DNA of 58,099 nucleotides from a virus: the IMG/VR virus record IMGVR_UViG_3300049043_000087, positions 1-58,099 of that record; one strand, written 5' to 3'. Of this stretch, positions 16,045-36,312 are shown one piece after another (the stretch's first letter is position 1; the number at the start of each line of letters is the position of its first letter). Position numbers and translations under genes: made by a program. A model generated the notes under the pieces. That model was not told where the DNA came from. It made no database searches and worked only from the letters and a program-made list of their open reading frames with translations.

Positions 16045-17165
16045 ATGACCATTAAATTCGTTGATGCTGCAGAGAACTTTAAAAACCTTCCGCATCAACA
16101 AGATGCATGGGAGTGGCTGCAAACTGTGGTCACTCCTAATGTTTTAGATACGTTTGCAACTAAATACCGTAACGAACAAAAAGAAGAGTTCTCTAATACC
16201 TGGGCAGGTGTTGTCGCAGCTGCCAAAAAAGCTGGAGCCAAGTTCCCTGAATGCGTTGCAGCACAGTGGGCACTTGAGTCGTCTTATGGGAAGCACACTG
16301 CATGCACGACATAACTACTTTGGTATCAAATCCAAAGATGGAGAAGGTTGCTTTGTTGAAACCAAAGAAGTTGTTGGCAGTCAAGAAAGTAACAATTAAA
16401 GACTGGTTTCAACGTTTCCCGATCTGTATTCCTGCATTGAATACCTGGTTAATCGCTGGTACAAGGACTTCAATAGCTACAAGGGTGTCAATCAGAGCCA
16501 ACAGCCGGAACGAATGCGCCAACCTCCTCGAAGCAGGAAAGTTACGCAACAGATCCGAACTACAGCACCAAGCTGATCCAGATCATGGATCGGGAGTTAA
16601 AGGTTCCCGATGCCAACGAACCCGGTGTTGTACTGGAAAAAGTACTGCCGGTTCCTTATGAGTACCAGCTAGATAACCAGTCTGGTACTGGATACCGGGA
16701 GTGTTTTTCATCTACCTGCGCCATGATCTGCCGTTACTACGGCAAGGTAAAAAGTGATGATGAGTACAACAAGATACGTGCGGAATACGGAGATAGCAAC
16801 AGACCGAAATGCTCAGCTACAAGCCATTCGTTTTCTAGGACTGCAAGCCAAGTTTGTTACCAATGGAAATGCAGCCTTGCTTAGAAAATGAAATCCGCAA
16901 CGGCAGGCCAATTGCAGTCGGTTGGTTACATAAAGGCAGCGCCAACTATCCCACTGGTGGAGGGCACTGGACCTGTTGCATAGGGTTTACGCAAGATTCA
17001 TTTATATTCCACGATCCCAACGGAGAAGCTGACATGGTAAATGGCGGTTATGTCAGTCATGACCGCAAAGCAGGTACTGCAGTTAAGTACAGCAAGAAAA
17101 ATTGGTTGCGACGCTGGGAATGTGACGGAAAAAACACAGGCTGGGCAATAATTGTCACAAAGTGA
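16045..17165 (+). CDS. Cell-wall hydrolase: glucosaminidase plus C39-like peptidase, frameshifted
   Basis: About 370 residues with two domains. Residues about 45-130 are glucosaminidase-like: FPECVAAQWALESSYGKHT with the catalytic Glu, then HNYFGIKSKDGEGCFVETKE. After a linker, a papain-fold C39-like peptidase: YQLDNQSGTGYRECFSSTCA with the nucleophile Cys, RPIAVGWLHKGSANYPTGGG followed by HWTCCIGF with the His, and FHDPNG. Frame changes near 16305, 16395, 16560 and 16805 break it. Such virion proteins cut peptidoglycan at entry or help lysis. Its stop overlaps the next gene by four bases. Confidence 0.75.
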
Positions 17166-17323
17166 AAAAGTATAAAGAGCCCCATATCAGGGTTAATATT
17201 TGCTGGAAAATTGGAAATGAAAGAAAATGCGCCACCCTAGACAAGAGTGACGCATATAAAACCCGTGAATGGGTTGAAAATAATGACGGTATTGTGTACT
17301 GGTTTCAGGCGTTGCCTGATTGA
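17162..17323 (+). CDS. Hypothetical protein, 53 aa
   Basis: GTG start overlaps the stop of the hydrolase (GTGA). VKKYKEPHIRVNICWKIGNE ... KSDAYKTREWVENNDGIVYW. Basic, mixed strand and helix. It ends one base before the stop of the convergent holin-like gene. No family recognised. Confidence 0.6.
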   Translation: MKKYKEPHIRVNICWKIGNERKCATLDKSDAYKTREWVENNDGIVYWFQALPD

Positions 17324-17488
17324 TCAGCGTTGCTTAGCGCGACCAATCACCAGGGCGCCAATTTCAATGATGCGGTAGAGCTTACGGACCAGCGCGTCAT
17401 CCTTTGGCGTGGGGGTCAGGGCTGTGATGGCCGAGCAGGCGGCGTGGATGGCAAGTGCCACTTCCAGGTATTCGTTGAGTTTGTGCAT
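17324..17488 (-). CDS. Holin-like small membrane protein, 54 aa
   Basis: MHKLNEYLEVALAIHAACSA followed by ITALTPTPKDDALVRKLYRI and IEIGALVIGRAKQR. An N-terminal hydrophobic helix, a TPTP turn and a second amphipathic helix with a basic tail. I recognise this pattern from many cyanophage and pelagiphage genomes, where it lies near lysis genes; the holin role is inference from topology and position next to the cell-wall hydrolase. Too short for default gene calling. Confidence 0.6.
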   Translation of the reverse strand: MHKLNEYLEVALAIHAACSAITALTPTPKDDALVRKLYRIIEIGALVIGRAKQR

Positions 17489-17506
17489 GGGTATATCCCG
17501 TTTCTT

Positions 17507-17998
17507 TTATTCTATGTCGTGTGGTTTATAGATATAGAAAGATTTCGTTTCTTCATCAATGGAATACAAAAGATTGGGATGATGGCGATTAATCCATTTC
17601 TTCCAAATCACCATCTGACGCTCGGCTTCTGCTGATTCGCAGTAAAACATCACCATATCTCCTGGTGGAATCACAGCCAGCCATGCGTACAAATGACGCA
17701 GTGCAATGGCATGTCCAGTATTACCGCCTAATCCAGTCAGATTGTTGTCTAATTGCTTGACGCGTTTACGCCTAGTGCGACGCATTAACCAATCGTTAAT
17801 CTGTCGCCGGCTTTTGCCCACGGCTAAACTGGCCATCCATGCGTAGCTTTTCCCAATACGAATCCATGGGATCAAACGAGTCACTGCTATTGCACCGTTC
17901 TTTAGATGCAGTGTTTTTACCAGCTTTTTTCTTTTGATCCGTTTGCATTGTTTCTTTTTAACTAAGGAAGAAAACGTTAGCTGTCGTACATCCGACAC
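17507..17998 (-). CDS. Hypothetical basic protein, 163 aa
   Basis: Very basic first 95 residues (KKKQCKRIKRKKLVK; ASLAVGKSRRQINDWLMRRT) and a C-terminal half with CESAEAERQMVIWKKWINRH. The SRRQINDWL segment looks like the recognition part of a helix-turn-helix. Similar proteins occur in marine cyanobacteria and phages, without known function. The start overlaps the next upstream gene by 22 bases, so a later Met (MASLAVGK) is possible. Confidence 0.55.
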   Translation of the reverse strand: MSDVRQLTFSSLVKKKQCKRIKRKKLVKTLHLKNGAIAVTRLIPWIRIGKSYAWMASLAVGKSRRQINDWLMRRTRRKRVKQLDNNLTGLGGNTGHAIALRHLYAWLAVIPPGDMVMFYCESAEAERQMVIWKKWINRHHPNLLYSIDEETKSFYIYKPHDIE

Positions 17999-18114
17999 TG
18001 GACCGCACCAGGATTTTCCTCACAATAGCGACGGAATTGTTCAGTCGGTGTTTCGATATAAATTTGGCAACGTTTCAAAAGCTTGCAAACAATCCAGTTA
18101 TAAAAACTAATCAT
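17977..18114 (-). CDS. Hypothetical protein, 45 aa
   Basis: MISFYNWIVCKLLKRCQIYI then ETPTEQFRRYCEENPGAVQC and RMYDS. The start overlaps the stop of the upstream frame by four bases (ATGA), which supports it as a real gene. Four Cys residues are present. No known family. Confidence 0.6.
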   Translation of the reverse strand: MISFYNWIVCKLLKRCQIYIETPTEQFRRYCEENPGAVQCRMYDS

Positions 18115-19033
18115 GGCCTATTAGTTAAAGCAACAAAGATTTCTGGGAACTTCTCGTCTGGATGGTGTTGGGTGCTCCAAGCTTCTTTCCATTCTGACAA
18201 GGTATGGTCGTGAACGGTATTGATAAATTCAGGATCTCCAAACTAGAGTAAGAAGAAGTTGTCATCTGTTGCTGCGGGACCACTACCAGATTGACTGCCA
18301 ATCAACCATTCAGATCCGCTCAATACAGTGACGGTGACTCCAGCATTGATCGCACATTCTGTTTCAGTAAACCCGTTCGGCTTCCCTGGTACTGTCGAAA
18401 TGCTGGTGTCAACTGTAATCGGTGAGTTGTACGTAACGGTTGTAACATCATCAATTGTTGTTTCCCGGAGGTAAAGGGTGAAATCTTCCAGGGCCAGCAG
18501 ATACTCAACAGCGGCAAACTCAACGATGACGCCAACGTTGTAGTCAAGCCGCTCGTTACGTGTTGTTGAAATGCACAGGAGATAATTACCAGCGTTAAGC
18601 GGGTAGTAGCGGTCATCTCCACGATCAAGACGCAACCTGGAGTAGGTGTTGTAAAGATCTGACTGGGCACTCATGGTGGTGTCCAGATATGGGAAGTACA
18701 CCTCACCTGTTGTCAGGCTTGTGCCTTGATGGATGGAATCCTCTTGGAAGATTGGTAGACCAACAATCGGAGTGTGATTGAGGTCATACATTGATGTTTG
18801 GATGTAGTTAGGCCGTGGCCCATCCTTTACAACAAGTATCCAACCCGGTTCAGTTAAATTAATTTGAAACCAATGGTTATAAGTACCGCCGCCATAACCA
18901 TTAAGACCAACCTGATTTAAAGGCCCAAGAGTACCCCTCAAATAACGCAACGACAGCTGCGAAAAGTAACCCAGATCCAGGGGTTTTCTTTTGTACGTTG
19001 ACGTTGTCCTGCTTGAGCTGAATTACGGGACAC
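18111..19033 (-). CDS. Tail-associated protein with internal amber, frameshifted start
   Basis: The main intact frame (18243-18950) encodes 235 residues from RYLRGTLGPLNQVGLNGYGG to TDDNFFLL. The frame is open upstream through TSTYKRKPLDLGYFSQLSLR, and a start GTG at 19033 (VSRNSAQ) is reached by one indel near 19015. Downstream of the TAG at 18243-18245 the same frame continues FGDPEFINTVHDHTLSEWKE to a TGA that overlaps the next start, so the TAG is probably a misread CAG, or a true amber. Beta-rich; resembles cyanophage tail proteins, function unproven. Confidence 0.6.
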
Positions 19034-27505: not shown

Positions 27506-28189
27506 ATGACCTTTGGCATTTGCACTGGTTATGACAATGCCGAGCATCTGATCAAGTGCGTTGATTCCATCCGCAACCAGCAGCTGGATGACTACCAGAT
27601 CCTGGTGGTTGGCCCCGAGGTTCCCGACCTGATCTATGACGAGCTGGCAGGCAATGACATTGAGTTCATCGAGTTTGATGAAACTACCCGGCCCCTTTGG
27701 ATCACCAAGAAAAAGAATTTGATTGCACAGAAAGCAGACTTTGACCGCCTGTGTCTGATGCACGATTACATGTGGCTGACACCCAAGTGGGCAAAGGAGC
27801 TGCGTGAGTTTGAGAAAGTCCACCCCTGGTCTGTGCTTGCGTTCCCACAACAGCGTTCAGATGGCGGCAGGTTCTGGTACGACTGGAGCGGCTTTCCGTG
27901 GCCCCCGCCATCTGGATGACCGGCAGTTCTATAGGTACACCGACTGGACGCACAACGACGAGGTCTACATCTCAGGCAACATCTTCTGCGTCAATCGCCA
28001 CCTGCTGCTTGACCACCCATTCGATGAAAGCCTGGGGCACATGCAAGAAGAAGATCTTGAATGGAGCCGCCGGTATTGCTCCGTATGTGCAGTTCAAGTG
28101 CGCCTTTAATTCAATGGTGTGCCACCAGAAGGAGCACCGTGATCAACATTTCTTTGATAAGTTAGATTCCACAGGTGGCATCAAATGAT
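27506..28189 (+). CDS. Glycosyltransferase family 2-like, frameshifted
   Basis: MTFGICTGYDNAEHLIKCVD, SIRNQQLDDYQILVVGPEVP start a GT-A fold typical of GT2; RPLWITKKKNLIAQKADFDR and LCLMHDYMWLTPKW (DxM/D-type acidic motif) follow. Indels near 27892 and 28070 shift to RYTDWTHNDEVYISGNIFCV then HMQEEDLEWSRR (the catalytic-base ED/E and QxxRW-like region) and IAPYVQFKCAFNSM. Ends overlapping the FkbM gene. It could be the second domain of the preceding protein. Confidence 0.7.
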
Positions 28190-28788
28190 TATCTTTGACG
28201 TTGGCGCAAACGTAGGCCAGGACTCTAAGCACTACGCAGAAGATCCTGACAATACGGTCTACGCATTTGAACCCACCCCTCAACTCCTGCGTGATCACCT
28301 GTATCCGTTTGCCAAGGAGCACCCGAATTACATTGTGATTCCCAAAGCCGTCACTGATTACGACGGCACAGTCACGTTCCACATTGCAGGGCAGCACGAC
28401 TGGGGTTGCAGTTCCATCCATAAGTTTAACGACGACTTGGATAAGAGCTGGCCTGGCCGCACTGACTTCAAAACAACAGAAGAAATTGAGGTTGAGTGCA
28501 TCACCATGCGTACGTTTCTCCTTGAAAACGGCATTGATCAGATTGATTACATGCACTGCGACACTCAAGGAAATGATCTTGTTGTCCTCCGTTCTTTTGG
28601 AGACTGTATGCAACCGGTTTAATGAGTGGGAAAGTTGAGTGTATAACCAGAATCCGCTGTATAAAGGTATTGATAACAGTTGCAATAACGTCACGCGTTT
28701 CTTGAAGGCCAATAGCTTTCACGTCAAGCGCTTGGAAAGCGACGATCCGTTTAACAACGAGCTGAACATTACGTTTGCCCGGCTATGA
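28185..28788 (+). CDS. FkbM-family methyltransferase, frameshifted
   Basis: About 200 residues. The AdoMet site is clear at the start: MIIFDVGANVGQDSKHYAED then VYAFEPTPQL with the acidic ribose-binding Glu. Later blocks IDYMHCDTQGNDLVVLRSFG match FkbM motifs (DxQGxE-like). Indels near 28612-28640 shift to NQNPLYKGIDNSCNNVTRFL and DDPFNNELNITFARL, ending in an ATGA overlap with the next gene. Probably O-methylates a sugar or related glycan made by the neighbouring enzymes. Confidence 0.8.
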
Positions 28789-29523
28789 ATAAGCTCATCT
28801 GTTTTGATCTTGACGGTGTCCTGGTTGACAGCAAAGAGATCCACTTTCAGGCGCTGAATGAAGCCCTGGCAGCAGTCCACCCCAAGTATGTGATCTCCCG
28901 TGAGGAGCACCTCAAGACGTACGACGGCCTACCCACCAGCGTGAAGCTGGACATGCTGACCCAAACCAAAGGCCTCCCCAGCCAGGAGCACCAACGAATC
29001 TGGGAGCTAAAGCAGCAGCTGACGACTGACTACTTCAATGAGTTTGAAATGGATTGGCAGTTAATTCAGCTGTTGATTGAGATCAAGTCTCGGGGTATCA
29101 GAGGTTGCCGTTGCGTCTAACTGCATCCGCAAGTCGGTACAGAATGCGCTGTACTCTCTGCACTTGTTCCCGTTTATTGATTATTTCGTCAGTGCAGACG
29201 AAGTGCCGCGCAAGAAACCATCCCCTGATTTGTACTGGCAGTGCATGATCCAGTGCAATGCAACTCCATCAAATACGGTGGTGTTCGAGGATTCCCACGT
29301 CGGCCAACAAGCAGCTTTGGACTCCGGCGCCCATGTGATCTGCGTCAAGAACCGCCTGGATCTAACCGCAGAAAAAATTCAAAAAGGTATTAACATTCTC
29401 ACAGAACAAGTGCTCAGCGAAACCCAAACCACATATGGAAGATCTCAATGTATTGATCCCTATGGCGGGTCGAGGCTCCAGGTTTGCAGCTGCTGGCTAC
29501 ACCTTTCCCAAACCATTGATTGA
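28785..29523 (+). CDS. HAD-family hydrolase (phosphatase), frameshifted
   Basis: Motif I ICFDLDGVLVDSKEIHFQAL with the nucleophile Asp, motif II VAVASN, motif III PRKKPSPDLYWQCM and motif IV VVFEDSHVGQQAAL are all present, with a helical cap between I and II. Beta-phosphoglucomutase-like subgroup by sequence; probable sugar-phosphate phosphatase or mutase. One indel near 29095. The frame continues about 90 bases into the next gene; an indel near the end may hide an earlier stop at about 29435. Confidence 0.8.
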
Positions 29524-30157
29524 TGTGCGTGGCAAGCCCATGATTCAGTGGGTGGTTGAGAATGTGGGCATCAAAGCCAAGTACACGTTCATTGCTCAGC
29601 AAGATCACATTGAGCAGTACAGTCTGCCCAGCTTGATGAATCTGATCGCCCCTGGCTCTACTGTGATTCCAGTCAATGGCGTCACCGAGGGTGCTGCATG
29701 CACAGCCCTACTGGCGTGGGATCTGATTGACAATGACAGCCCCCTGCTGATTCTTAACAGCGACCAGTACCTGGAGTGGGATCCGATCCATAGCCTGTAC
29801 CAACTGGAGAACAGCGATGTTGATGGTGCGATCTTTACTTTCCACAGCACCCACCCGAAGTGGAGCTACGTCAAGCGCAAGCCTGGTACCACTGACATCG
29901 TTGAGGTAGCCGAGAAGAAACCCATCAGTCACGATGCAACCTGCGGTGTGTACTGGTGGCGCAAGGGATCTGACTTTGTCAGGTACGTTAATCAGATGAT
30001 CGAAGCAGATGATCGAACCCTTGGTGAGTTTTATATTTGCCCTGCGTACAATTACGCCATTAAGGACGGTAAAAAAATTTCTGCAGTCCCAGTTCGGGCC
30101 ATGCACGGGCTCGGCACACCAGAAGATCTTGATGTGTTTCTGAAGGAGTTTGCATGA
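29435..30157 (+). CDS. Sugar nucleotidyltransferase
   Basis: 240 residues, intact. NVLIPMAGRGSRFAAAGYTF and PKPLIDVRGKPM are the nucleotide-binding signature (GxGxRF...KPLI) of the GlmU/RmlA fold; LLILNSDQYLEWDP carries the metal-binding Asp, and DGAIFTFHSTHPKWSYVKRK follows. Activates a sugar phosphate to NDP-sugar, presumably the donor for the two glycosyltransferases upstream. The stop overlaps the next gene (ATGA). Confidence 0.85.
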   Translation: MEDLNVLIPMAGRGSRFAAAGYTFPKPLIDVRGKPMIQWVVENVGIKAKYTFIAQQDHIEQYSLPSLMNLIAPGSTVIPVNGVTEGAACTALLAWDLIDNDSPLLILNSDQYLEWDPIHSLYQLENSDVDGAIFTFHSTHPKWSYVKRKPGTTDIVEVAEKKPISHDATCGVYWWRKGSDFVRYVNQMIEADDRTLGEFYICPAYNYAIKDGKKISAVPVRAMHGLGTPEDLDVFLKEFA

Positions 30158-30636
30158 TTACCTTTCTTAGCACCATCGCCCATCGCGGCAACTTGCGTGG
30201 CCCAGAGCCGGAGAACGAAAACAATCCAGACTATATCGATAAAGCAATTGAAGAGTTGTTCTTAGTTGAAGTTGATATCCGCTTCGTTGAGGGCAGCTTC
30301 TACCTGGGGCACGACAGCCCCGAGCACTTTGTTGATCTGCACTGGCTCAAGGAACGGAGTGAATTTCTGATCCTCCACTGCAAGAACTTGCCCTGCCTGT
30401 ATCTTCTTAAGGATCAGTTCCATTGTTTCTGGCATGACAATGACAGCTACACACTGACTACCGAGAAAAAGATCTGGACATATCCAAATCAGGCAGTTGG
30501 CCCTGACTGCATCATTGTTGACCTGGAGCCACCGATCAAAGAAAAGATTGACACCTGGAAGGCCAAAGGTTGTTATGGAGTTTGCAGCGATTATGCTGAC
30601 GTGATAGGTACGGACTTTATTACTGGTATTGTTTAG
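30154..30636 (+). CDS. Glycerophosphodiester phosphodiesterase-like protein
   Basis: 160 residues. IAHRGNLRGPEPENENNPDY carries the HRG...PEN(E) motif, and LFLVEVDIRFVEGSFYLGHD the ExD...HD motif of PLC-like TIM-barrel phosphodiesterases, with catalytic His and metal Glu/Asp. It is shorter than bacterial GDPD of about 230-250 residues and lacks clear later motifs, so it may be a trimmed form. Lies at the end of the sugar cassette; a glycerol-phosphate or sugar-phosphate substrate is inference. Confidence 0.65.
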   Translation: MITFLSTIAHRGNLRGPEPENENNPDYIDKAIEELFLVEVDIRFVEGSFYLGHDSPEHFVDLHWLKERSEFLILHCKNLPCLYLLKDQFHCFWHDNDSYTLTTEKKIWTYPNQAVGPDCIIVDLEPPIKEKIDTWKAKGCYGVCSDYADVIGTDFITGIV

Positions 30637-31000: not shown

Positions 31001-31157
31001 GCAGCCAACCGAACAAGAACGGTTAGAAGAATACTTTTGGAAGCTGGAAAGCCTGATCCCTAATCCACCAAGGGATTGGGCTAAGGCGTCTAAACCATGT
31101 AAGTGGGATAAAATATTAAAAGAAAGAATGAATAATCCAGATGGCTCAGGACGATAG
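30978..31157 (+). CDS. Hypothetical protein, 59 aa
   Basis: MPQNEKFRQPTEQERLEEYF, WKLESLIPNPPRDWAKASKP then CKWDKILKERMNN. Charged and helical. Overlaps both neighbours in frames that differ, a tight + strand cluster. No family recognised. Confidence 0.6.
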   Translation: MPQNEKFRQPTEQERLEEYFWKLESLIPNPPRDWAKASKPCKWDKILKERMNNPDGSGR

Positions 31158-31426
31158 TAAGTATACAAAACCAGGGTTACGCGAGAGCATCAAAGATCGC
31201 GTGATGGCTGGATCAAAGGGCGGTAAGCCAGCGGCAGTGGAGCGCACGCAAGGCCCAGCTTGTTGCACAGGAGTATGAGAAATCAGGTGGGGGATATAAG
31301 GGAGGTAAGGGAGAGAAGCAAAAATCCCTGGAGGAATGGGGGAAGGAGAAGTGGATGACCAAAGATGAATATGAAAAGCGCAGTAAAGCCAAAGCTGCCG
31401 CCAAGAAATATCAGGAAAACAAATAA
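31141..31426 (+). CDS. DUF5872-like protein, N-terminal type, frameshifted
   Basis: About 94 residues: PGLRESIKDRVMAGSKGGKP, then after an indel near 31230 QWSARKAQLVAQEYEKSGGG, YKGGKGEKQKSLEEWGKEKW and a Lys-rich end. The SKGGKPGQWSARKAQL...YKxxGGGYKG pattern is that of the first half of DUF5872 proteins found in phages and giant viruses. A separate gene at 33255 resembles the second half. Confidence 0.65.
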
Positions 31427-31443
31427 GACGGTAATTATCGGGA

Positions 31444-32481
31444 ATGGAACTATTTCAACGTTTTCTTAATGCATATAAGCAAGCAGATAAAAAGCTTGGA
31501 GGATTTCTTCCGGGAGGAGGAACAGGTAATGTTTTAAGTAACGCAGTTCGTTCTGTAAATCCTTCCGAGGTTGCAGCTTTTTATGGTGCAAATATATTAA
31601 ATGCAGCACACAGACGAGCAAGTGAAGTTTTGCAGGCGCGGATTAATTCTGCATCAGAAGCAACAACCCTGCAGGAATTACCACGGTTAATGGATGCTGC
31701 ATCTAAACGAATGACAGCTGCAGGTTTTCCAGGAGCCTGGAGCCCTTTCGTACCGGGTTATGAAACAGGAGAAATTCGCGGAAATCGCGCAGGCACAAAA
31801 ATTGATTTAAACCAAGGGTTTGCAGAGATTGTTTGGAGGGCCTGCATTTAGCAATGCCAATGTTTTAATGGGAGAGACAGAGCCAACTGTTTATGCAACA
31901 ACTAAAACACCAGGTTGGGTAATTGCCCATGAATTAGGGCATGCTGTTGATGCAATAAAGCGTCCTTATGATTATTCGCTTCCAAGAGAATATGATCTTA
32001 CGGGTGGAGACAAAGAACTCATGGAAGGAGTCAAAAAATTTCAAGCCAGAGATGCTATTCGCGCTTCTAGTCCTGGCGCCGTAGTCCTTGGTTTTGGGAG
32101 TTAAAAACCAACGAAGATAAATCTTTATTAGGAGCAGGAATCGAAGGGGCGCTTAGCGGACTCGGAGCTAATCAACAATTGTTAAGAAAAGAAATAATGG
32201 CAGATAGGTTTGGCATACCTATTGCAAAAGAAGCAGGAGTGCCTTGGAGCGCACGAGGAAATGCCTTGGCAAAAAGTACTTATGCACTTGGTGCAACAAC
32301 TCCAGGTTTTGCTCAAGGTGTGATTGGAGAATTGCTTAATCGAGGCGTTAATGCACTTACTGGTTTAACAGGAGCAGGCATGCGTGCAGCACAGAACAAT
32401 CAATTAAATAAAACAGAAGCTGCACTAGCAAAATATGGATACAATCCTGAACAGATACAGCATGACACCAACAGGCAATGA
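31444..32481 (+). CDS. HExxH metallopeptidase-like protein with shared N-terminal signature, frameshifted
   Basis: About 345 residues. N-terminus MELFQRFLNAYKQADKKLGG followed by FLPGGGTGN resembles that of the protein at 34.9-35.8 kb. A zinc-peptidase motif follows near residue 160: PGWVIAHELGHAVDAIKRPY (HExxH), with IMADRFGIP further on offering a possible third ligand Glu/Asp. The C-terminal part is Ala/Gly-rich (GALSGLGANQ; LNRGVNALTGLTGAG). Indels near 31830 and 32098. AT-rich compared with its flanks. Perhaps a virion-packaged protease. Confidence 0.6.
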
Positions 32482-32546
32482 AATAAAAATTGAAAAAGAA
32501 ATGAAGCCGAAAAAGCCCTTTATAATTTTATTAGAAATCTAAAATA

Positions 32547-33255
32547 ATGGACCCACGTCAAGCAGCTAAACAGTTTTTAAAAAAACTTTAACCTAGAAGG
32601 AGCGCAAGATAAAATTATTAGCTCAAGGCAATTAGCCCGAGATAGTGGAGGATACGAACTCCCAGGTGCAGCGTGGAGAAGTGTCAACAAAGAAATTGAA
32701 GAAGAACAAAAACAAATTCCATTAATCACTAAAAATAATATTGTCAACAAACCAAGCCTACAAGCATTAAAACGACAGCAATTAGATGGAAAAATTGCTG
32801 CACAAAAACAAGAGTTAAGAGTTCAAGCTCATGAAGCTTTATCTTCTAATCCTGCAGTCAATTTAAACACTGATCAAGTTATCAGTGATAGTTGATTACC
32901 AGGTCAAGCCAGTGCGGCGGCACATGCTTATAAAGAAAACATTCTTTCTTATGCAATTGAAGCATCTAGGATAAGAAAAATTTCAATTCAAGATGCAGTA
33001 GGAGAAGCTGTAAAAAATGTATCTCCTGCTCAATATTTAGGAAACGTTCCTTTAAATGCAGGAGAAACTACCCAGATTGCAACAGCAGCAAGCAATCCAT
33101 ATTTCCAAAGATTGATTGAATCAGACGAGCTTGGATATAGCCCAAGAGAAGCCTTGGAAGAATACAATCGAATTGATCCTAGATTTTTACATGGTTCAGA
33201 TAATTTACGTAGACAAGCAAGACAAGATGAGTGGGATGAGTGGGAGATGTTCTAA
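32547..33255 (+). CDS. Hypothetical AT-rich protein, frameshift and internal TGA
   Basis: About 236 residues: MDPRQAAKQFLKKL, one-base shift in an A-run near 32590, then SSRQLARDSGGYELPGAAWR, KRQQLDGKIAAQKQELRVQA, an in-frame TGA at 32893-32895, then YKENILSYAIEASRIRKISI, QYLGNVPLNAGETTQIATAA and YSPREALEEYNRIDPRFLHG to DEWDEWEMF. Helical. The stop overlaps the next start (TAATG). Same AT-rich style as the preceding gene, suggesting one acquired block. No family recognised. Confidence 0.5.
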
Positions 33256-33461
33256 TGGCGGACAAGGCTATACAAAAGGGATATACAAAGCGGTACTTAC
33301 CGGAATCCGCCTGGGCATCCCTGTCAAAAGAAGAACGGCAAGAGACAGACCAGAAGAAACGCTCTGGTAGCCGAGAAGGTAAACAGTTTGTGAAGAACAC
33401 AGAAGCGGCAGAGAAAGCAGGACGTGCAGCGCGTGCAGCCAAACGTTACAAGAACAAATAA
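33255..33461 (+). CDS. DUF5872-like protein, C-terminal type
   Basis: 68 residues: MADKAIQKGYTKRYLPESAW, ASLSKEERQETDQKKRSGSR, EGKQFVKNTEAAEKAG and a basic end. The RYLPxxAWxxLSxxE...GKQFVKNT pattern matches the second half of DUF5872-type proteins, whose first half resembles the gene at 31.1 kb. Very basic; likely binds nucleic acid (inference). Confidence 0.6.
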   Translation: MADKAIQKGYTKRYLPESAWASLSKEERQETDQKKRSGSREGKQFVKNTEAAEKAGRAARAAKRYKNK

Positions 33462-33495
33462 AACCTCTATAATCAATAAAGAAATATTTTCTATC

Positions 33496-33645
33496 ATGGC
33501 TGACGGTAAAAAGTTTGTCCCTGGCAAAGGCATGGTTTCCGGTGGCAAGGCAGCCCCTGAAAAAGGCGCCAAGAAAGAAGCGGTTCCCCCAAAGAAAGGA
33601 GCAATGCCTCCCAAAAAGGGTGCGGCCCCCAAGAAGAAGAAGTGA
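33496..33645 (+). CDS. Lys/Pro-rich small protein, 49 aa
   Basis: MADGKKFVPGKGMVSGGKAA, PEKGAKKEA, then three PPKKGA-type repeats and a KKKK end. Low complexity and strongly basic, similar to the tail of histone H1; DNA condensation or packaging is possible but unproven. Confidence 0.6.
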   Translation: MADGKKFVPGKGMVSGGKAAPEKGAKKEAVPPKKGAMPPKKGAAPKKKK

Positions 33646-33709
33646 TTTCACACCAACTTCTAATTTGCTCCTAATTTGAAATAGATTAGGAGTTCATTCA
33701 GGAGTTGGC

Positions 33710-34384
33710 GTGACCACACTTGTTGCAAACGTTCCGCCCGTCAAGGTGTGGGTGCGGCGCGAGTATTTGCGTGACCTGCGTGACGGCCATGGGGAATACA
33801 CCCCTGGCTACTGGGTCACCTGCAAATCACTGACGGGCCGTGCCCTGTACTTTGAGACGTACCTGACGGAGTACGGAGCGTTGTATGACAAGCTGCCCAT
33901 CAGTGCGTTTTTGTCCTGGGATCCTGACCACCCGGACAAACCCGTGGCACCTACCCCAGATCTAGAGCTGACTGACCTGCAGTTCTGGAATGGGTTTGAC
34001 CATGGGCTTACGGTCATTGAAAAGAACTTGATCTTCAACATGGAGTTTCAGGTGATGACACGAAGCCAAGGTGTAATGAAGGGCACATACCTATTTACGG
34101 TTGACAATTATCATCCTCACAGGAACGAACCCGATTTCTACTTTGCGGAGTTTCCAGATGAGCACAAATCCCATAACATCGTGGCTCTGGACAACGGTCA
34201 AATTGGTGCTTATCCCAATAACCGTTGTCGCATGTGCGATCCATCATTGACCAACCACACCCTGAAGAACCCTGACTTCAAGGTATCCACTCGTTATTTT
34301 GACGTGGAGCATGCACCAAAGTGGGGACGCCTTGGAGAAACAGACGATTACTTTTGGAAAACTCCAAATGAAGCTGTAAAATAA
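33710..34384 (+). CDS. Conserved hypothetical protein, 224 aa
   Basis: GTG start; TTLVANVPPVKVWVRREYLR, GHGEYTPGYWVTCKSLTGRA, LFTVDNYHPHRNEPDFYFAE, CRMCDPSLTNHTLKNPDFKV and STRYFDVEHAPKWGRLGETD. Intact, globular, rich in aromatic residues, with a CxxC and clustered His. I recall the type from cyanophages but know no function. Confidence 0.65.
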   Translation: MTTLVANVPPVKVWVRREYLRDLRDGHGEYTPGYWVTCKSLTGRALYFETYLTEYGALYDKLPISAFLSWDPDHPDKPVAPTPDLELTDLQFWNGFDHGLTVIEKNLIFNMEFQVMTRSQGVMKGTYLFTVDNYHPHRNEPDFYFAEFPDEHKSHNIVALDNGQIGAYPNNRCRMCDPSLTNHTLKNPDFKVSTRYFDVEHAPKWGRLGETDDYFWKTPNEAVK

Positions 34385-34627
34385 TTTTAGTTCCCGCTCT
34401 CTTTTGATCGGGCAGCTGGGGTGACTCGTTAGGCAGATAGCCTAGAAGGAGAGCCAAGATAGAGATCAGGTCCCTGCTTGCACACCTGATCCATCTACTT
34501 AAAGGGTACAACAAGGAACGTTGTATTAAACGAAGAGTCCCTTAGGCCACACCGTAGATTATTGTAGGTGGACACTCTCGCCCTGCTTCAAAGTTAGTTA
34601 TATTTATTACAGCAACATTTGGTTTTA
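34385..34627. other. Gap without a convincing gene
   Basis: About 240 bases between the 224-aa gene and the small HNH gene. No frame with a start codon looks coding on either strand; a short start-less + strand frame (HLIHLLKGYNKERCIKRR) ends near 34545. No strong hairpin with a T-run is visible. Confidence 0.4.
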
Positions 34628-34876
34628 GTGCCCAGCTCCAAAGATAAGTTGCTGGAAAACAGACAAAAGCTTTTGGAGTACAAAAAAGCTTTGCAGTGCG
34701 AGCAGTGTGGTATATCCGATCATCGTCTTCTTGAGTTTCACCACGTTGGAGATAAAGATCACAATATTTCAAACATGGTGAATCACGGTTACGGCTGGAA
34801 TCGTATAGAAGAAGAGATTAAGAAGTGCATTCCACTCTGCTGCAACTGCCACCGCCTGGAGCATTGGAATGATTAA
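34628..34876 (+). CDS. Small HNH endonuclease
   Basis: 82 residues. QCEQCGISDHRLLEFHHVGD has the first zinc CxxC and the catalytic HH, and CIPLCCNCHRLEHWND the second CxxCH. Near-minimal HNH nuclease. GTG start at 34628 or TTG at 34619; no ATG. Convergent with the next gene (four-base overlap). Confidence 0.7.
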   Translation: MPSSKDKLLENRQKLLEYKKALQCEQCGISDHRLLEFHHVGDKDHNISNMVNHGYGWNRIEEEIKKCIPLCCNCHRLEHWND

Positions 34877-35762
34877 TACGGAATAGTTATATTTATATCA
34901 TAAGGTGTTGGTTTAATAGGTAATGCATATAACAAAGCACGACCTAAAGCTGTAGCTGGGCTTTTGAATTGAGATTTGGTTTCTTTCATTTGACCGTACT
35001 GACCAGACGGGGTCGTAGAAGTTGGCGCTTTAGACGCAAAATATCCTTTAGTTGGATTCCAAATACTTTGTATTTCCTCAATTGCTTTAACCGGTTGAAA
35101 TTTACCAGACACAAGATCTGGATCTTCAGATGGATTTACCATGTCATAGGTATCTTTAAAAGTAATAGATTTACCTGGATCAACATTTACGTTATAAGAA
35201 CCAAGCGTATTAGTAACACTTGTGCCGACATCAGGGCGATTATAAGGTCGTCAGACCAGATATCAACCAACCCTGGTCCATATGCAGGGACAGACCCCAT
35301 TACGAAATCAGGCAAGTTTCTATTTTTAATACCCTTTGCAACTGTTTGTTTTAAAAAGTTTTCAAGAGGAGTATTAATATTTTTTGGGTCACCTGTTTTA
35401 ATTTGTTGTTGCATACTTGCAATTATTTCTTCCGGTACTTTTAGTGGGTTTGGAATCATTGCTTTTGCTAAAGGTTGTTGAGTAGCAGCGGCTCTCAAAT
35501 CCATTAATGTTGATGGATCTAACTGTAAGTTTGTATTACCAACTCCAGTAAGATAACGAGCAAATAGATTAACTCGATCTGGCAGCTGATTTAACGCAGC
35601 ACCAACCATATTTTTTGTAGCCGCATTTATTTTTTCTTTTGTGGACTCAACAGCGCTTGCAGCACCCCCTGGCAATAAACCTCCAAACACATTTTTATCT
35701 ACTTGACCATAACCACGACCAACTTTATTTAAAAATTGTTGAAAGATATTTGGGTCAGCCAT
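34873..35762 (-). CDS. Hypothetical protein with the FLN...LPGG N-terminal signature, frameshifted
   Basis: About 296 residues after joining two frames at an indel near 35253. Start MADPNIFQQFLNKVGRGYGQ, VDKNVFGGLLPGG, which matches the N-terminus of the HExxH protein at 31.4 kb (FQxFLN, DKxxGGxLPGG). The middle (NLPDFVMGSVPAYGPGLVDI) and the end (NTLGSYNVNVDPGKSITFKD; ALGRALLYALPIKPTPYDIN) are unlike that protein. AT-rich. The upstream Dps-like gene overlaps its start. Confidence 0.6.
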
Positions 35763-36312
35763 TACCCATTCCTCAGGGTAGCTTTTATAAACCAAGCTGC
35801 TTTAAAGGCCTGACCAACAAGGTCAGCAAGGTAATTAGCAATATCAATGGCACCAACTTTTTGTGCAATAGGTTCAAGCTTTTTGCACTTTATACCCAGC
35901 TCTTCCAAGTTCTTATAGTACACAGCAAGCATTTCTGTTCCCTTGTAGCTGGTAACGTGCTGAATACCAGGGCCTGCATCAGCGAGCCCACGGGCGCACA
36001 TGGGCAGCAGATAGTCCATGGAGCGAATGAACTCAGCTAACGTATCAAACTGTTCCAGATGAGCCTCGTACTGGTCCTTAAGGAACCCATGCACCCCGAG
36101 GAAGTTAGACCCCTCGTAGTTCAGGTGAATGAGATGGATTGTGTCTCAAGTTCCTTGAGGTAGGAGCAGAGGGAGATGCACTGCTGAATGAAGGCCCCGA
36201 CATCACCATTCTTTGATTTACCAGGAGCTTTGGGTTTGTCCTGGGGCTGAGGCGCCGCTTGAGTAGGTTCAGGTTGAGGCGCAGGAACCGCTTGAGTACC
36301 AGGAGTATACAT
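35762..36312 (-). CDS. Dps-like ferritin-fold protein, frameshifted
   Basis: About 183 residues. A Pro/Gln-rich N-terminal 35 residues (PAPQPEPTQAAPQPQDKPKA) precede a four-helix domain. After an indel near 36133 the frame reads IHLIHLNYEGSNFLGVHGFL, KDQYEAHLEQFDTLAEFIRS, the Dps pattern HxN..G..F...H..L...Y......D..AE with the inter-subunit metal ligands His, Asp and Glu. Dps dodecamers bind and oxidise iron and protect DNA. The assignment is from this motif only. In a phage it might protect genome or host from peroxide. Confidence 0.6.

Follow-up and report, generated by a model that had tools for sequence, protein, structure and literature searches.

To our knowledge, there are very few phages in which it is understood in detail how non-structural proteins are marked for loading into the particle. 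Polyvalent phage proteins, which are large and multi-domain and some of which have metallopeptidase domains, are believed to be delivered to the host along with the DNA. The capsid targeting sequence (CTS) of phage T4 spans about 10 residues; it depends on the T4 core and is cleaved by gp21. On its own, the T4 CTS is enough to carry foreign cargo to the head and from there to the host (PMC9026906). Here, a 58,099-nucleotide virus record (IMG/VR IMGVR_UViG_3300049043_000087, positions 1 to 58,099, one strand; hereafter the window) was analyzed, in which two otherwise unlike genes, A and B, were found to share an N-terminal module of about 35 residues. Related phages carry the same module in front of different cargo domains, and on balance it is probably a modular delivery tag for virion-borne, envelope-directed proteins.

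The module read MELFQRFLNAYKQADKKLGGFLPGGG at the start of gene A (31444, + strand) and MADPNIFQQFLNKVGRGYGQVDKNVFGGLLPGGA at the start of gene B (35762, - strand). It consisted of an amphipathic-looking helix, xLFQxFLNxVxxG, followed by a core, Y-x3-DK-x(1-2)-[LF]-GG-x-LPGG. The original prediction had noted that both proteins open with one FLN...DK...GG...LPGG signature and then diverge fully, and the translation and a motif profile built without either window sequence confirmed the signature; searched against the whole record, this profile matched at exactly two sites, those of genes A and B. In detail, the spacer was slightly different from what had been described, being DKKLGG in one gene and DKNVFGG in the other, and gene A lacked four of the helix residues. 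The tags and cargoes in the window were located as follows.

31444..31536, + strand: tag of gene A, MELFQRFLNAYKQADKKLGGFLPGGGTGNVL (translation; motif-profile match, E 1e-13)

31537..32546, + strand: cargo A, HExGH metallopeptidase-like domain of about 330 residues, frameshifted (reading frames; alignment A3, 8 intact relatives)

35655..35762, - strand: tag of gene B, MADPNIFQQFLNKVGRGYGQVDKNVFGGLLPGGAAS (translation; motif-profile match, E 5e-17)

34873..35654, - strand: cargo B, probable colicin-M-like fold of about 260 residues, frameshifted near 35190 (alignment A2; AlphaFold model; VIA-align)

Past the tag the divergence was complete. Profile-profile alignments of two metallopeptidase families (A and a further one, D) and of the 296-residue family of B with one metallopeptidase family paired only the first ~40 columns, which indicated that the cargoes are unrelated and ruled out full-length homology of A and B. 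Both genes were also AT-rich as predicted, with a GC content of 41.8% for gene A and 37.2% for gene B against 47.9% for the window. The full-length products would be about 362 (A) and 296 (B) residues; in this contig the frames were shifted near 31828, 32100 and 32480 in gene A and at the one site in gene B. Sequencing indels are the likely cause, because the reading frames of close relatives are intact. Small frameshifts also split the PolA-like, integrase-like and Dps genes of the window, a pattern typical of long-read sequence that has not been corrected.

In viral sequences, 12 loci held relatives of B and one held a relative of A, and no relative of either was detected at significant E among the annotated phages of INPHARED. 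The motif itself was then scanned in 2.9 million viral contigs of IMG/VR with the degenerate DNA patterns DKxxFGGxLPGG and DKxLGGxLPGG, which matched 39 and 50 stretches, respectively, every one in frame. After these matches were collapsed together with the loci found earlier, 73 distinct viral proteins carried the core, so that the motif was by no means confined to genes A and B. It lay inside the first 35 residues in 56 of them, and residue -4, a position outside the search pattern, was Tyr in 70/73 and Trp in 2/73. Within the motif, every synonym occurred at the codons for Gly and Pro, which are four-fold degenerate; this showed that selection acts at the protein level. The cellular control, run on 257 Gb of genomes with the one pattern DKxLGGxLPGG (50 stretches in viruses), gave 15 chance-like matches; 11 of these were in frame, in short or unrelated frames, and none of the 11 had Tyr or Trp at -4. 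No credible match was found among the PDB sequences searched for the motif, and a literature search on an LPGG phage motif returned nothing relevant.

The list of attached domains called for by the original prediction comprised 18 cargo groups, clustered with the motif masked, and cargo was exchanged between phages. The lineage in which this was observed resembles Synechococcus phage S-EIV1 (KJ410740), the nearest isolate, whose portal is 70% identical to that of relative L010 and whose replication genes, Dps and terminase are homologous. The dominant cargoes of the lineage were the B/C family (28 proteins), metallopeptidase D (9, plus one tape-measure copy) and metallopeptidase A (9). In most members the tagged gene occupied one of two slots. 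The order at slot 1 was terminase, a small Lys-rich open reading frame (basicORF), tagged gene, a small basic one (KRYLP) and portal, with the terminase upstream and the portal downstream seen in L126 and L081; slot 2 directly followed the Dps gene, whose stop overlapped the start of gene B, and the same gene order was kept in slot-2 loci. The window phage had cargo A in slot 1 and cargo B in slot 2, with the following neighbours.

31141..31426, + strand: basicORF, on the 5' side of slot 1 and interrupted by an indel (L013, L126, L081, L042 and others have a homologous neighbour)

33255..33461, + strand: KRYLP open reading frame, 3' neighbour of slot 1 (open frame; homologous neighbour in slot-1 loci)

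35762..36312, - strand: Dps/ferritin-like gene with one indel, immediately upstream of gene B at slot 2 (relative L015:6081-6638 matches PF00210 and phrog_3636)

Every cargo type was found in both slots, and the exchange could be read directly from the DNA. In slot 1, L126 (cargo A), L108 (cargo B) and L081 (cargo D) were 84-93% identical from at least 300 bases upstream to nucleotides 92-113 of the gene (gene start at query position 401); the cargo stretches were then unrelated, and 82-93% identity returned from near the stop codon. The five loci compared at slot 2 showed the same break pattern, with breakpoints near nucleotides 105-118, except for L094, which had little downstream match. At both slots the DNA match thus ended at codon ~31-38 and returned after the stop codon. 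Whatever lies behind the tag is swapped among phages through recombination where the tag ends, so that the tag forms the recombination border, and since homology returns directly past the cargo stop, the cargo is not accompanied by an immunity gene. In a sister group, L008-L012, the place between basicORF and KRYLP was taken by a homologue of B with 41-45% identity, which began with MDLAGKLMDG and was without the core motif; in L008, L010 and L012 it stood directly before a portal-like gene (phrog_20475). S-EIV1 differed from its tagged relatives in that the tag motif was nowhere in its genome and neither slot held a tagged gene. The tag can therefore be gained or lost.

Several further features were observed in the window and in S-EIV1. 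The region 28143-30636 of the window, beside slot 1, holds genes that resemble those of sugar and nucleotide-sugar metabolism (FkbM-type methyltransferase, HAD phosphatase, nucleotidyltransferase), and its content varies between relatives. Slot 2 of S-EIV1, after Dps, is occupied by a gene annotated as sulfate adenylyltransferase (17153-18619; L038:17153-18619), an annotation that looks doubtful; L100 has a relative of this gene on the downstream side of its tagged gene. The large terminase of S-EIV1 (L037:24080-26620, KJ410740 54080-56620) has a seeming intein-like insertion, read by eye as CLVGDTMVLTNHG...HNFIANGFNVLNC. At the start of the contig (39-437) an 80-copy TGCTG pentamer array was found in a first kilobase of 61% GC, probably an assembly or long-read artefact.

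Cargoes A and D had different signatures, HELGHAxD...ExxADR and HELGHLNP...EEDRAERF, respectively. Each combined HExxH with a conserved downstream Glu, as in zinc metallopeptidases, to which both may be assigned by motif; in the family alignment of D, H116-E117-x2-H120 and E167/E168 were invariant. The corresponding sites of cargo A in the window are given below.

31928..31942, + strand: HELGH zinc-binding motif (H158, E159 and H162 invariant in alignment A3)

32191..32208, + strand: EIMADR (ExxADR motif), whose Glu is a candidate for the third zinc ligand (alignment A3, with E237 and A240-D241-R242 invariant)

Membership of cargo A in peptidase family M48 was rejected, as the PF01435 profile matched 0/8 cargo-A genomes at E up to 1 and did match the control genomes. 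IrrE/PprI-like zincins were among the weak Foldseek matches obtained with a poor model of cargo A.

Cargo B was modelled on the protein of L007, which is 90% identical to the window B piece (AlphaFold, mean predicted local distance difference test score 71.8). In this model the tag was helical at residues 5-26, and confidence was low across the FGGLLPGG after it. The top three matches of VIA-align to the cargo were pectocin M2, pectocin M1 and PaeM (Z 4.7, 4.3 and 4.2; 105-123 residues; 18-22% identity). ColM-type chains took ranks 1-3 and 6 of 528 with weak scores (Z 3.7-4.7), syringacin M standing below the top three, and in Foldseek they took ranks 2-5 and 9, again weakly (E about 1). A colicin-M-like fold is thus probable for cargo B. 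No PDB sequence matched it, and the PF14859 (Colicin M) profile matched 0/29 cargo-B members at E up to 5. Colicin M requires the motif DxYDx5HR (PMC5821083, PMC8469651). Most members of the cargo-B family kept [DE]x[YF][DNK] at the motif position, and the catalytic HR was present in 0/29 sequences. Given the absent HR, hydrolysis of lipid II by cargo B is no more than possible.

Outside the S-EIV1-like lineage, the core was carried by proteins of genome entry and of the cell wall. By profile matches it was found on tail-tube cap proteins like T4 gp48 (L082; phrog_230, PF11091), and also on a microvirus DNA-pilot protein (L076; phrog_27063, pilot protein for DNA ejection), a lysozyme/endolysin-like protein (L051), PG_binding_1 proteins (L072, L096) and a protein ending in LysM-like sequence as read by eye (L077). 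The tape-measure protein of L090 (TMP_3, PF20155) held the core together with cargo D inside. Core proteins adjoined the portal gene in L083 and lay near a DNA-ejection gene in L079. The motif was not present in the known gp48 N-termini of HTVC008M, Mosig and P-TIM68. A 36-residue consensus gave only weak matches in INPHARED, 10/14 of them in the tape measures encoded by Gordonia phages (GRAWKAVDNFLGGHLPDW, E about 8); in that of Gordonia phage GTE5 (L127, near 20747) the resemblance of GRAWKAVDNFLGGHLPDW to the core is a hint only.

These results bear on the targeting sequence for packaging or injection proposed in the original prediction. The part concerning one N-terminal targeting module on different cargoes was strongly supported by the exchange of cargo at the DNA level. 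Packaging into the capsid or injection was only made likely, by the company that the core keeps in a tape measure, a tail-tube cap and a microvirus pilot and beside DNA-ejection and portal genes, and it is from this that we infer the destination of the tagged proteins. The tag would dock its protein along the route by which the virion delivers its genome, namely head core, portal or tail lumen, and the cargo would leave the particle with the DNA and then act in the host envelope. The cargoes delivered in this way would be two kinds of HExGH metallopeptidase (A and D) and a colicin-M-fold domain (B). In unrelated phages the core alone may do a related job in proteins of entry (tape measure, gp48-like cap, microvirus pilot, virion lysozyme and podovirus internal proteins). 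That such phages have it in proteins of DNA ejection and of the tail suggests that virion-delivered proteins share a general signal not named before. A wider version is put forward as a tentative possibility: the core would be a general short motif for genome delivery in siphoviruses, podoviruses, T4-like myoviruses and microviruses, with a single shared feature of the host envelope or delivery channel as the thing recognised, and S-EIV1-like cyanophages would have made it into a plug-in tag for interchangeable enzymes.

A number of observations weigh against delivery by a simple packaging tag. In some proteins the core was internal or C-terminal, and tandem copies, up to three per protein, were seen in L096 (5009-5818, with a peptidoglycan-binding domain), L113, L058 and L088; the core is therefore not always a removable leader. 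The idea of a double-glycine bacteriocin leader was set aside, as the core is also internal and at protein ends. Two tagged genes per genome were found in the window and G005, where the pair fills slots 1 and 2, and in G008, with one in slot 2 and the other further downstream; most genomes had one, unlike T4, where the targeting sequence serves several proteins. The untagged relatives of the 296-residue protein in L008-L012 indicate that the slot does not strictly require a tag. The peptidase activity of A and D is predicted from motifs only, and the structure model of cargo A was poor (mean score 47.5). Microviruses and tailed phages share no assembly pathway, which argues for a common host target over a common virion dock, the microvirus case being one contig.

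This last point makes an envelope-contact motif the strongest rival to delivery, because the microvirus pilot protein and the tailed phages share the core. The module would then act after ejection, its helix and Gly-rich hydrophobic loop inserting into or binding a component of the host envelope, with no loading into the virion. The occurrence of the core in a tape measure, a tail-tube cap and a pilot, proteins without a common assembly partner, is readily explained in this way, as are the modelled helix followed by a flexible GG-x-LPGG and the predominance of cell-wall enzymes or binders among motif-bearing proteins and cargoes. However, the motif has no clear transmembrane stretch, its conserved Tyr, Asp and Lys speak for a specific contact with another protein, and the tagged genes sit in head and packaging neighbourhoods, and we regard envelope contact without loading as rather unlikely.

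Lysis at the end of infection was considered improbable. A late effector with exchangeable cell-wall catalytic domains, for which the tag would be an export or inner-membrane signal, agrees with the usual single gene per genome, whose catalytic domains are swapped as in endolysins, and with colicin-M-like and lysozyme cargoes that act on the wall, but no recognisable signal peptide or signal-arrest-release-like helix was seen, S-EIV1 has separate lysozyme genes, and an export leader makes no sense inside a tape measure or at the N-terminus of a tail-tube cap. The clean swap between N- and C-terminal parts, visible as DNA-level breakpoints, and the colicin-M-like domain of cargo B recall polymorphic toxins, with a conserved trafficking tag and exchanged toxic domains as in contact-dependent inhibition and colicins; a role of this kind in phage-phage or phage-host conflict is very improbable, given that homology returns within tens of bases of the cargo stop and that no immunity gene is co-exchanged. 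That the tag is no more than DNA exchanged recently at a recombination hot spot, with no function of its own, is hardly credible: it is indeed the recombination border, but the protein is conserved where synonymous codons vary freely, and the motif occurs in unrelated phage types at other positions.

If the module is a delivery tag, its compactness and the natural, repeated exchange of its cargo would allow the features that mark proteins for delivery to be studied directly, and the tag might be used to bring enzymes into cyanobacteria. The cargoes suggest that a colicin-M-like fold and new metallopeptidases are part of cyanophage entry. One function in tailed phages and microviruses, if true, would mean a shared and so far unnamed step of genome entry.

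Compared with the colicin M family (PF14859), cargo B is probably similar in fold and differs in the missing Pfam match and HR, and the tagged B gene has neither an immunity gene nor a TonB box. The tagged proteins also differ from polyvalent proteins, being small and carrying a single cargo behind a short fixed tag, and none of them matched the Pfam domains of polyvalent proteins. A further likeness is to the T4 CTS of IPI-III, which is likewise a short N-terminal module on otherwise diverged proteins. In contrast to the T4 CTS, the tag described here has about 35 residues and a conserved core, which also occurs internally or C-terminally and across phage types. The tag is thus best read as a putative functional counterpart of the T4 CTS that is unrelated to it by sequence.

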